Source: Ornatilinea sp. | GTDB lineage: Bacteria > Chloroflexota > Anaerolineae > Anaerolineales > Anaerolineaceae | NCBI GenBank assembly: GCA_018433975.1 | Contig: JAHDQE010000001.1 | Location: 1 to 64,000, forward strand | Reading direction: 5' to 3' | DNA length: 64,000 nt | Shown here: one piece after another, positions 31,610 to 43,351 of the stretch | Layout: each line of letters opens with the position of its first letter | Position numbering within the stretch: the stretch's first letter is position 1 | Notes under the pieces: model-generated | The model's input: only the letters and a program-made list of their open reading frames with translations | Told to the model about the DNA's origin: nothing | Databases searched by the model: none | Position numbers and translations under genes: made by a program

Positions 31610-32518
31610 TCATGCCTGTTGGCGTTCCAACACCATCACATAAATAATTGCCAGGGTCGCCACCACAGCCAGCAAAATATTTGCCAAAGCAGCCGCATAT
31701 CCCATATCAAAGAACGTCATCCCGACCGTATAAATCTGAAAATTAAGCACCGTCGTAGCCGAACCCGGCCCGCCCGCCGTGGTAGCATAAATGATGTCAA
31801 ATACTTTAAAAGACTGCATGGTCCGCATCAGCAGCGCAATCAAAAAAGTTGGCTTTAATAAAGGCAAAGTCAGGTACACAAATCGCTGGAATCGGCTGGC
31901 ACCATCTACCAGCGCGGCTTCAAACGGCTCTGTCGGCATGCTTTTCAAACCGGCCAGGAATAAAACCATAATCAGCGGGGTCCATTGCCAAACATCAATC
32001 AGGATCACTGCCGGCATTGCAGTAGATAGCTCCCCTAATGGTCCGCTGCCCACATCAATTCCTAAAGCTTTTAAGTAAAAAGGAATAACTCCAAAATCTG
32101 CATTATATAAAGATTTCCAAACCAGACCCACGACCAACGAAGGTAATGCCATAGGAATCAACAGGAAGGAGCGGATAATGTGCATCAGGGTTGTTTCTGC
32201 CGATAACAACAAAGCTAAACCAAGGCCCAATATCAGTTCCAGTGAAACCGTTCCGGCTACAAAAACCAATGTTGTCTTAATCGCTTTGAGGATAACCGGG
32301 TCGGAGAAGGCTCGGATGTAGTTTGCCAATCCAATAAATGTTTTCGTCTGGTTTGGGTCTGTTAATCGATATTTAAATAAACTAATGATCATTGAAAACC
32401 CCAGCGGGTAAATTGCGATTAACACAACAAATACCAGTAGTGGAGCCAACATCAAAAGATACCAGAGCTCTTTACTGATCCCCCGCCGGGGACGAACCGA
32501 ACTGATTGACTTGTTCAA
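31610..32518 (-). CDS. Carbohydrate ABC transporter permease (MalF type)
   Basis: The 302-residue protein has six hydrophobic segments and the EAA motif FEAALVDGASRFQRF near residue 200, plus GGPGSATTVLN before the last helix, typical of UgpA/MalF-type permeases. It sits between the solute-binding gene and the second permease of the GntR-headed operon. Confidence 0.93.
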   Translation of the reverse strand: MNKSISSVRPRRGISKELWYLLMLAPLLVFVVLIAIYPLGFSMIISLFKYRLTDPNQTKTFIGLANYIRAFSDPVILKAIKTTLVFVAGTVSLELILGLGLALLLSAETTLMHIIRSFLLIPMALPSLVVGLVWKSLYNADFGVIPFYLKALGIDVGSGPLGELSTAMPAVILIDVWQWTPLIMVLFLAGLKSMPTEPFEAALVDGASRFQRFVYLTLPLLKPTFLIALLMRTMQSFKVFDIIYATTAGGPGSATTVLNFQIYTVGMTFFDMGYAAALANILLAVVATLAIIYVMVLERQQA

Positions 32519-34135: not shown

Positions 34136-34876
34136 TCATCGAGCCAGGGAGATTGAGTATTTATAAAGCCCGGTATGGCTCACGACCCGATGATACTCAA
34201 CAGGCGTATCCAAATCAGAATACACAACGCCTTCCACCAATAATAAAGGGGAGTTCAATGGCACCAACAGCAATTCAGCCTGACGCTGATCAGCCGCAAT
34301 CGCTTCCATAGTCTTATCAGCGCCATAAATCGTTACCCCTTTGTTCTCCAATAATGCCCATAGAGACCCGACCTGATCCAGCTCATCTTCTGTTATCTCC
34401 ACACCAGCCGGGGGTTTTAAAAAAGATATGCTGATAGATACAGGCACATCCTCAACAACCCGAATTCTTTCGATATAAGTTACCTGCGTTCCTGGTTCAA
34501 CCAAAAGCTTCTCTGCAACCTGAGAAACCGCCCTGATTTTCTTGAAGTCAAGAATCGTGGTTTGCAGCTTCCGGCCGCTTTCCCGCATCTCTTCTGAGAA
34601 ACTGGTCAACCGGGAAAGTTCACGCCGCAGCCGGGATTGCAGCACAAATGTACCCTTCCCTGCAACCCGGGTGATATACCCCTCATGCTCTAATTCATGC
34701 AGCGCTCTTCTCACTGTAACTCGGCTCACACCGCATTGTTCCATCAATTGCGCTTCAGTAGGCAAGGCCTGATTTGCACCAAATTGTCCTTCCTCGATTA
34801 ATTCAACCAGATGTTTCTTCAATTGATGGTAAAGCGGAATAGGTGAAAATCTATCCAGATGTTCGACAGCATACAT
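34136..34876 (-). CDS. GntR/HutC-family transcriptional regulator with UTRA domain
   Basis: The 246-residue protein has an N-terminal winged-helix DNA-binding domain (PLYHQLKKHLVELI, then GVSRVTVRRALHELEHEGY near residues 49-67) and a C-terminal UTRA effector domain ending in YHRVVSHTGLYKY. HutC-type regulators repress a catabolic operon until a phosphorylated sugar or related effector binds. Its own gene has a strong promoter with a palindrome across the -10, suggesting autorepression. It heads the transport and catabolic operon that follows. Confidence 0.93.
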   Translation of the reverse strand: MYAVEHLDRFSPIPLYHQLKKHLVELIEEGQFGANQALPTEAQLMEQCGVSRVTVRRALHELEHEGYITRVAGKGTFVLQSRLRRELSRLTSFSEEMRESGRKLQTTILDFKKIRAVSQVAEKLLVEPGTQVTYIERIRVVEDVPVSISISFLKPPAGVEITEDELDQVGSLWALLENKGVTIYGADKTMEAIAADQRQAELLLVPLNSPLLLVEGVVYSDLDTPVEYHRVVSHTGLYKYSISLAR

Positions 34877-34908: not shown

Positions 34909-34939
34909 TATTATATTGTATTAATGTAATAATATAATA
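34909..34939. promoter_or_regulatory. Putative operator of the GntR regulator
   Basis: TATTATATT (34909-34917) and AATATAATA (34931-34939) form a perfect 9-bp inverted repeat. It overlaps the -10 and the start region of the gntR-like promoter, which suits an autorepressor site. Confidence 0.5.
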
Positions 34940-34961
34940 TCAAATTCCGGAGCTTTGTCAA
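34934..34961 (-). promoter_or_regulatory. Promoter of the GntR regulator gene
   Basis: Consensus TTGACA (34956-34961), a 16-bp spacer and TATTAT (34934-34939) on the minus strand lie ~58 nt upstream of the regulator ATG. Confidence 0.7.
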
Positions 34962-41193: not shown

Positions 41194-41982
41194 TCAAACC
41201 GTGCCCGACAATAATCGATCCATTTCCTGTTTATTATGAGATGCCAGCCAGGTATCCCGTTGATATTCCATACCTTCAATCGCAATATCCACTTTAATTT
41301 CATCCAAAATGTATTTCACAAGAGGCCGGAAATCACGGACGCCGGTTCCCAGGGCAATATGTCGTTTTTCCGGCGTCAGGTCGCTGATATGGATATGCCT
41401 GACTCCCTCAACCTGTTTCAGAAATTCCAGAGGGTCTAAATTCAATGGCACATGTGCCGCATCAAATGTGATTCCCAGGTTAGGCATGGAGACTTCTTTT
41501 AAAATACGTGTACTGTCTTCGGGGTTGATGAAGAATTCTTTGGAAATATGCTCCATGATTTCTAAGGCAAGTTCAATGTCCCGTGAGAGCCCAAACTCGC
41601 ACAATCTTTGGACACCACTGGCCAGTAATTTCCAATACGCTTCCGGGTTATCCCCCGGAATGGTAATCCGACCGGGATGGAAAACCACCGGATTTGCCTC
41701 AAGAATTTCGGCAAGGACAATACTTTCTTCCAACATTTCCAGAGAAGCTTCCCGGACTCTTTCCAATTTTGAAGTAAAGTTCAGATCCCAGCTCAAAGCA
41801 TGAACAGAAAGGGAAAGACCCAGCTCTCTGGCTAATTTTCGTAATTTCCGCGGGTCCTCGTCTGATTTAAGCAATTGAAAATGCCAGACTTCAACACCCT
41901 GATACCCAATTTCATGGGCAATTTGAAATACCTCTTCCATTGGATATGCGAATAACAATGGCGAAGAAAGACTGATCTTCAT
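41194..41982 (-). CDS. Xylose-isomerase-like TIM-barrel sugar epimerase/isomerase
   Basis: The 262-residue AP-endonuclease-2-like TIM barrel has the family outline: ISLSSPLLFAYP start, IGYQGVEVWHF, VFHPGRITIPG, LALEIMEHIS (metal Glu), LGITFDAAHVP, RHIHISDL and DIAIEGMEY. Members isomerise or epimerise sugars and sugar phosphates with a divalent metal. It shares one base with the upstream PHP gene (TGATG), so the two are coupled. Substrate unknown. Confidence 0.88.
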   Translation of the reverse strand: MKISLSSPLLFAYPMEEVFQIAHEIGYQGVEVWHFQLLKSDEDPRKLRKLARELGLSLSVHALSWDLNFTSKLERVREASLEMLEESIVLAEILEANPVVFHPGRITIPGDNPEAYWKLLASGVQRLCEFGLSRDIELALEIMEHISKEFFINPEDSTRILKEVSMPNLGITFDAAHVPLNLDPLEFLKQVEGVRHIHISDLTPEKRHIALGTGVRDFRPLVKYILDEIKVDIAIEGMEYQRDTWLASHNKQEMDRLLSGTV

Positions 41983-42833
41983 CAGGCGCTCCGATAATTT
42001 TCATAAGTCTGTTTTAAAGTCTTGCGGAATGTTTCCAATACTGAAACAGGTGCAGACATGCTTCCAATCGGAAATGATTTTTTGCGTTTCGGCCCATGCG
42101 AGTCACTGCCGCAGGATACAATTACATTGTATTTCTCTGCCAGGCCAATATATTTCCGTATCTCCACTTCGGAATGCATTGGATAATACGCTTCCAATCC
42201 CTTCGCGCCTGCCTGCAGCAATTTTTCAACCACAGCATCGTTTTCAACCAACCCCGGATGCGCTACAATCGGAAGACCTCCCGCCCGGCTGATATATTCA
42301 ATTGCCTCTTCTGGCGTGATTTTGTCGTGTGGAACATGGGCTGGTTTTCCCAAACCCAGATATTTCTCAAATGCTTCTTTCTGATTCGAAACATATCCCT
42401 TTTCAACCATCGCTTCAATAACATGCGGTCTGCAAACCGCTCCGTGTGCAATCTCCCGAACACGATCATAAGAGACTTTTACGCCAACGCTCTCCAGCTT
42501 TTCTACAATTTTCTTAGCCCGAACAATACGGCCTTCCTGCCTCTTTTTCAACATTTCCAGGAACTTTGGATCCGTGGGTTCCCAGAAGTAACCCAGAATG
42601 TCAATTTCAGCATCATAAGCATCTGTATTCAATTCCACACCCGTGAACAGTTCCAGCCCTCGCTCTTTGGCATAAGGACTTGCCTCTAACGCCCCATCAA
42701 CCGTATCGTGATCCGTAATGGCAATCGAAACCGCACCCGCAGCAATTGCCACATCGACAATTTCACGCGGGGAATAGGTTCCATCTGAAGCTGTGGAATG
42801 CATGTGGAAATCAAAAACCACTCTATCGTTCAT
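41982..42833 (-). CDS. PHP-domain phosphoesterase
   Basis: The 283-residue protein has the PHP metal motifs: DFHMHSTASDGTYSP (His-x-His) near residues 8-22, IAITDHDTVDGA, FTGVELN, HPHVIEAMV-like text, PIVAHPG and GSDSHGPKR. It belongs to the YciV/TrpH-like branch, which includes 3'-5' phosphoesterases and 5-phosphoribosyl cyclic phosphodiesterases. It fits a step that removes phosphate from, or opens, an imported phospho-compound, matching the neighbouring AfuABC-like importer. The family is certain; substrate is inferred. Confidence 0.9.
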   Translation of the reverse strand: MNDRVVFDFHMHSTASDGTYSPREIVDVAIAAGAVSIAITDHDTVDGALEASPYAKERGLELFTGVELNTDAYDAEIDILGYFWEPTDPKFLEMLKKRQEGRIVRAKKIVEKLESVGVKVSYDRVREIAHGAVCRPHVIEAMVEKGYVSNQKEAFEKYLGLGKPAHVPHDKITPEEAIEYISRAGGLPIVAHPGLVENDAVVEKLLQAGAKGLEAYYPMHSEVEIRKYIGLAEKYNVIVSCGSDSHGPKRKKSFPIGSMSAPVSVLETFRKTLKQTYENYRSA

Positions 42834-42898
42834 TCTTACTCTCCCGTAAATTTGCTGTTCGGAAAAATAATTTTTCCGGGAAGCATAAAAATAATAAA

Positions 42899-42924
42899 AG
42901 AGCGCCTTTTAAAAAGTCGCTCCA
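42899..42924 (-). terminator. Terminator of the small transcription unit
   Basis: GAGCG...AAAAGG-type stem (GAGCG with CGCTC, inner CTTTT with AAAAG) is followed on the minus strand by TTTTATTATTTTT. It starts 5 nt after the stop of the 63-codon frame. Confidence 0.8.
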
Positions 42925-42929
42925 TTTAA

Positions 42930-43121
42930 TCACAGGTCATCCAATGCTACTTCTGCGCGTTTCACCAGATTACAATAGGAACACCTGCCGGTTATTCCGA
43001 ATAACTGGTCAGAATCGCTCGACACACCCTTACCGTTCATTATTCGAACGTACAAAAGCCTATCATCAATACGAATCCGGTTTACCGATAACATCGTATA
43101 AAGACCTTTATCAATTCCCAT
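42930..43121 (-). CDS. Possible small protein of 63 residues, unknown
   Basis: A minus-strand frame of 63 codons ends 5 nt before a good terminator and lies behind its own near-consensus promoter. The product has a CSYC motif near residues 47-50 and an acidic C-terminus (EVALDDL); no family is recognised. The ribosome-binding site is weak (GAGATG about 14 nt upstream). It may instead be part of a non-coding transcript of roughly 370 nt. The independent promoter and terminator are the main evidence. Confidence 0.45.
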   Translation of the reverse strand: MGIDKGLYTMLSVNRIRIDDRLLYVRIMNGKGVSSDSDQLFGITGRCSYCNLVKRAEVALDDL

Positions 43122-43259
43122 GACAATAATTTACATCTCAGCAAATTAATTGATCTTCCTCAAAAACTTCAGGAAACAACCAACAATTTTGTCTTTTTTA
43201 CACACTAAAACACAATAAAATTTTTTATCACACAATATTAAGTTTTTTAAAGACTTCTC

Positions 43260-43288
43260 ATTTTATAGTCCGAAAATCAGACTGTCAA
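43260..43288 (-). promoter_or_regulatory. Promoter with palindromic spacer for the small transcription unit
   Basis: Consensus TTGACA (43283-43288), 17-bp spacer and TAAAAT (43260-43265) on the minus strand. The spacer contains the imperfect palindrome GTCTGATTTTCGGAC, a candidate operator. Confidence 0.7.
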
Positions 43289-43351
43289 GGCAATTTTGTG
43301 AGCGTTTTTGGCCCTGTCTGCGCAAATTATCAGTTCTTCAAAGACTTCAAA

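Follow-up and report, generated by a model that had tools for sequence, protein, structure and literature searches.

The 64-kb stretch of DNA analysed here (the window) contains, in an intergenic region of 518 nt, a series of signals that are all placed on the minus strand, from position 43288 to about 42885, in the order promoter, AT-rich leader, 63-codon frame and terminator. Upstream of this unit, on the same strand, are the genes for a PhoU_div protein and a PHO4-type permease. The gene downstream codes for a PHP-domain protein and is followed by those for an AP_endonuc_2 TIM barrel, a solute-binding protein, a permease, an ABC ATPase, RpiB, an Fe-ADH_2 protein and a GntR/UTRA regulator; spacing and strand suggest that the genes from PHP to GntR/UTRA constitute one operon. 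The best NCBIfam matches of the solute-binding protein and the permease are 2-aminoethylphosphonate types, below the cut-off. The features of the region are listed below.

43260..43288, minus strand: sigma-70-type promoter TTGACA-17-TAAAAT (TTGACA at 43288-43283, 17 nt, TAAAAT at 43265-43260)
43267..43283, no strand assigned: near-palindrome AGTCTGA-TTT-TCGGACT in the promoter spacer, candidate operator, 6 of 7 arm positions complementary
43122..43253, minus strand: AT-rich leader; the start site near 43253 is deduced from the promoter
42930..43121, minus strand: 63-codon frame with the motif CSYC, which may encode a leader peptide or a small protein, or be a relic or a product of chance; no detectable relatives
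42899..42923, minus strand: intrinsic terminator hairpin of 10 pairs with one bulged A, 6 nt past the stop codon
42885..42898, minus strand: U-rich tail of the terminator, from the sequence
42831..42893, minus strand: predicted hairpin over the PHP start, in which the U-rich tail and CUUCC pair with the ribosome-binding site GGGAG and the ATG
41982..42833, minus strand: PHP-domain gene (domain match), first of the downstream operon

A sequence-only reading of this DNA had proposed a TTGACA-17-TAAAAT promoter with a palindrome in its spacer, an AT-rich leader and a 63-codon frame (43121-42930) with a CxxC motif, and these elements are indeed present, the promoter with 11 of the 12 consensus bases and the palindrome in its imperfect form. 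Two sites of at least 11/12, both in intergenic DNA, occur in the window, whereas ten first-order Markov sequences contained 0.6 on average. The other one, TTGACA-16-TATTAT (34934-34961, minus strand), is located directly upstream of the GntR/UTRA regulator gene (34136-34876). At the 9/12 level, the local 2.5 kb contains four promoter-like sites, while 4.0 were expected from shuffles, which is the chance level; a weak site of this grade lies within the frame itself (43066-43039). The near-palindrome occurs in exact form nowhere else in the genome, and the idea that it is the operator of a regulon was discarded, as with up to two mismatches 33 genome sites were found versus 58 for the reversed pattern. 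The promoter is also flanked by a direct repeat, GAAGTCTTTRAARAACT (43332-43348 and 43241-43257, minus strand, 91 bp apart). The genome has no exact copy of it besides these two, and an equally good repeat appeared in 8.5% of 200 shuffles.

The terminator, which had been placed 5 nt past the stop codon, was found as well, with the correction that the fold puts 6 nt between stop and stem. Folded within 51 nt, its hairpin has a z of -2.8 (2 of 200 shuffles as good), and within 35 nt a z of -3.1 (0 of 200). A simple terminator scan did not list this hairpin; it gave two terminator-like sites, 2.7 being expected, which does not exceed chance. Sequence and predicted fold place an intrinsic terminator between the promoter and the first structural gene of the same strand. 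A promoter-to-terminator transcript of about 364 nt, close to the RNA of about 370 nt suggested previously, is plausible, and genes related to phosphorus are found on both sides of it. The folding of this RNA is unremarkable. Although none of 100 shuffles folds as well as the full transcript (z -3.6), the base composition of which varies along its length, the 160-nt pieces of the minus strand have z values of -1.5 to -2.4, corresponding to the 4th to 13th percentile of 256 contig windows, so that RNA folding is within the usual range of the contig. At gathering score, Rfam 15 gave only one tRNA in the window, and none of the families behind six sub-threshold matches (best E 0.08) fits. A covariance model built from the single sequence found nothing convincing in 60 other genomes; it returned two matches, both in one genome (G032; E 0.0026 and 0.65), the better of which is an ordinary terminator-like hairpin.

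The claim that the unit is self-contained is the one that became doubtful. The terminator hairpin ends only 65 nt ahead of the start codon of the PHP gene, on the same strand, and in the 127 nt before that start the best sigma-70-like match, by a consensus scan only, is 8/12, compared with 11/12 at the leader. Moreover, the hairpin predicted in the gap sits over the first ribosome-binding site of the operon. Folded from 42893 on, it has a z of -3.0, and none of 200 shuffles was as good. Among 52 genes, a set made up of the longest frames in the window that do not overlap and have 150 codons or more, and not of curated annotation, the PHP start region is predicted to be second in folding z and second least accessible. 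The start region with the strongest fold belongs to the gene at 31610-32518 (minus strand, z -4.9). The terminator and the ribosome-site hairpin are predicted to form together, with no either/or choice between them, and the four strands tested as antiterminators pair with the leader no better than expected by chance (58 to 73% of 300 shuffles did equally well). An RNA switch is therefore not predicted. A perfect inverted repeat, CGGAAAAA-TTA-TTTTTCCG (42860-42878), is also situated between the terminator and the PHP start; it could be an operator or an RNA hairpin.

Whether the 63-codon frame encodes a peptide was approached through its length, codon usage and starts. When the intergenic region was shuffled 3000 times with its dinucleotides preserved, 9.6% of the shuffles contained a frame of 63 codons or more on the same strand, and 29% one on either strand; when a codon score at least as high as the observed one was also demanded, the same-strand figure fell to 1.0%. 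The score itself, 0.097, corresponds to the 21st percentile of 267 pieces of real genes and exceeds that of 98.8% of 172 spurious frames, a generous control, the background having been trained on such frames. The remaining frames of the stretch score lower, and 16% of 2000 stop-free shuffles of the frame reach its score. The ribosome-binding sites are weak: anti-Shine-Dalgarno pairing at the first ATG is equalled or beaten by 81% of the 52 window genes, and at Met10, the best of four starts, by 63%. A single-sequence AlphaFold model, with at most a beta-hairpin and a mean pLDDT of 44, is uninformative. In short, the promoter and the terminator are good, and the frame is only mildly better than chance.

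Searches for relatives of the frame brought little. In 201 genomes, the own one included, no protein match other than the frame itself had an E below 0.03. Weak matches (E 0.038 to 1) numbered 29 and came from 26 of the 200 other genomes; 12 of them contain in-frame stops. They are at the level of chance, because the reversed frame yielded as many, 26 in 25 of the 201 genomes with a best E of 0.032. In 396 genomes of the class, a set that shares some members with the first, nothing but the frame itself matched with E below 0.04; the one weak match there proved to be antisense within an open frame of 478 codons. Pattern scans produced 102 matches in genome contigs and 14 in viral contigs, none of which was confirmed, and no relatives were detected in phages (protein) or plasmids (DNA). 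A DNA search of 101 genomes, with up to six candidates scored per genome, matched the own genome and none of the 100 others. At E 0.001 neither Pfam nor NCBIfam assigns the frame to a family, and PHROGs offers none up to E 10; the best Pfam match, RNHCP, had an E of 0.13, below the cut-off, and the best PDB match an E of 0.36. Conservation of the frame, which had been proposed as one of the checks, was thus not detectable in these searches outside the own genome.

Several explanations of these signals may be considered. The unit could be a free-standing, lineage-specific small gene, the product being the protein of 63 residues (54 from Met10) and the terminator ending its mRNA. Complete signals flank the short frame, as they do in ordinary orphan small genes that have a promoter and a terminator to themselves, and the codon score lies among those of real genes and above nearly all spurious frames. 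What separates the present frame from such genes is its weak ribosome-binding site, its lack of relatives beyond chance or of any family, and a stop codon only 6 nt before the terminator; the codon score is also matched by a fair share of stop-free shuffles, and the structure prediction adds nothing. We consider such a gene unlikely, and the idea of a self-contained gene weakly supported. The same promoter and terminator, together with the folding of the full transcript relative to its shuffles, would also suit a small regulatory RNA of about 364 nt acting in trans, in which the frame would be incidental. The ordinary rank of the 160-nt pieces among contig windows, the lack of an Rfam family and of DNA relatives in the 100 other genomes speak against it, and make it the more improbable of these two.

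A separate problem is the possibility that the frame is meaningless or a relic, one version being that it descends from the C-terminal part of a class I/II aminotransferase and has since decayed. The chance of a same-strand frame of this length is not negligible, as given above. In addition, three of the weak protein matches (G007, G160 and G190) represent one aminotransferase family of this class; residues 7-61 of the frame align up to near the C-terminus of these enzymes, with pairwise scores of 63 to 67 versus about 26 for shuffles, above all 500 of them, and two of the three alignments continue upstream of the frame ATG, across two stop codons. Of 29 unselected orthologues, 28 align from the same or nearly the same part with scores of 35 to 58, and one scores 31. 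However, the three enzymes were selected as hits from 200 genomes, in the sequence of which Karlin-Altschul statistics predict about 60 chance matches at a score of 67, and the reversed frame produces an equal number of weak matches. Against a profile built from those 29 orthologues, the frame scores only 1.9 bits, a value that 1 of 300 shuffles reaches, as does 1 of the 382 other pieces of the window; the intact orthologue of the own genome scores 40 against the frame, and the Pfam search showed no aminotransferase match up to E 10. The weak collinear likeness to the aminotransferase C-terminus, not significant after selection, is therefore a lead only; the frame is possibly a relic. As a whole, the explanation by chance or decay appears slightly more unlikely than the small gene and somewhat less so than the trans-acting RNA, and if it applies, little follows from the frame.

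The reading we put first is that the unit is the attenuated 5' leader of the downstream PHP/phosphonate-type ABC operon; we would assign it a probability of about 45%. The position of the unit, its strand, the missing consensus promoter before PHP and the hairpin at the ribosome-binding site are then accounted for by one assumption, that of read-through. In appearance the unit resembles a regulated first part of that operon rather than a separate gene. Here the sequences and the gene order are directly visible and the hairpins were predicted in silico, while the transcription start, the read-through, the operator and the link to translation are supposed. Transcription would begin at the promoter at 43288, possibly under control of a protein bound at the spacer palindrome, most transcripts would end after about 364 nt at the intrinsic terminator, and some polymerases would read through into the operon, where the second hairpin would cover the ribosome-binding site of the first gene. 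Translation of the 63-codon frame, if it occurs, would bring a ribosome to the stop codon, where it would overlap the base of the terminator stem and promote read-through; expression of the operon would in this way be set by translation of the frame.

There is a precedent for the last step. In Escherichia coli, according to PMC4824070, moving the stop codon to 5 bp before terminator tR2 decreased termination from about 90% to less than 10%, and removing translation abolished the repression of termination. Since an E. coli terminator 5 bp past a translated stop hardly works in that account (PMC4824070), efficient translation and efficient termination would conflict in the unit described here. 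Were the coupling similar to that in E. coli, this would imply that a translated frame leads to read-through into the operon, and an untranslated one to the short RNA.

Two known types of attenuation invite comparison. In trp-type amino-acid attenuation, a leader frame and a terminator precede the operon, as they do here, but the present frame has no run of one amino acid and no competing antiterminator. In pyrBI-type attenuation, a ribosome following closely behind the polymerase in the leader frame prevents formation of the intrinsic terminator. The likeness to the latter consists in a promoter, a leader frame, a terminator that a ribosome finishing the frame could reach, and structural genes just downstream on the same strand; on the other hand, the stop codon here is 6 nt before the stem, there are no pyrimidine genes, and regulation and translation are only proposed. 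The pyrBI type is mentioned in the same source (PMC4824070).

Some results speak against the attenuated leader. The antiterminator pairing at chance level and the joint folding of both hairpins offer no switch, the covariance model had no convincing match in the 60 other genomes, and the operon could be served by the 9/12 site inside the frame or by a non-consensus promoter. The hairpin at the ribosome-binding site was noticed after the fact, and the start of one of the 52 genes folds better. The translation step, in particular, is burdened by the weak ribosome-binding sites of the frame. The most elaborate form of the proposal seems very improbable to us, more so than any of the alternatives above: a lineage-specific, cysteine-bearing leader frame of 63 codons, the translation of which would control two stacked gates of a phosphonate-type uptake operon, namely the terminator at its stop codon and the hairpin, formed partly by the U-rich tail of that terminator, that closes the ribosome-binding site of the first gene. 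If the attenuated-leader reading is right, the unit would allow attenuation of a phosphorus-scavenging operon to be tested in what is probably a Chloroflexota genome. It would also remind us that a unit of promoter, frame and terminator should be read together with the operon behind it before a small gene is named. Nothing yet shows that such a unit is in itself unusual.

Relatives of the PHP gene at E up to 1e-40 occur in 5 of 400 genomes of the order, the own one included, and in the set of relatives listed in full (61 genomes) none of the 60 others is of the same genus as the own genome. The nearest PHP relative comes from a metagenome-assembled genome named Anaerolineaceae bacterium, the contig of which agrees with that of G027, a genome of the same family. 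In G027 (PHP 70% identical), the roughly 700 nt that lie between PHP and the end of the contig contain no clear gene and no recognisable counterpart of the leader, but only scattered identity. In G018 (PHP 55% identical), the PHP gene is preceded by a relative of the PhoU_div gene of the window (63% identical) and a Sugar-bind regulator gene (L024 2341-3315) of the SorC type, which fills the slot between PhoU_div and PHP taken by the leader in the present genome. The surroundings of PHP in two further genomes (G123 and G149, frames judged by eye) are unlike. The slot before PHP thus varies among relatives; a regulator gene in that place in one of them agrees with a regulatory role of the leader, and its absence from G027 and G018 does not. 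Because these relatives with the same PHP gene are without the leader, conservation cannot decide. On a Syntrophomonadaceae contig (L067 1398-1761), a SpoVS gene (86 aa) is followed by a GC-rich inverted repeat with a T run and then by a PHP gene 35% identical to the one described here.
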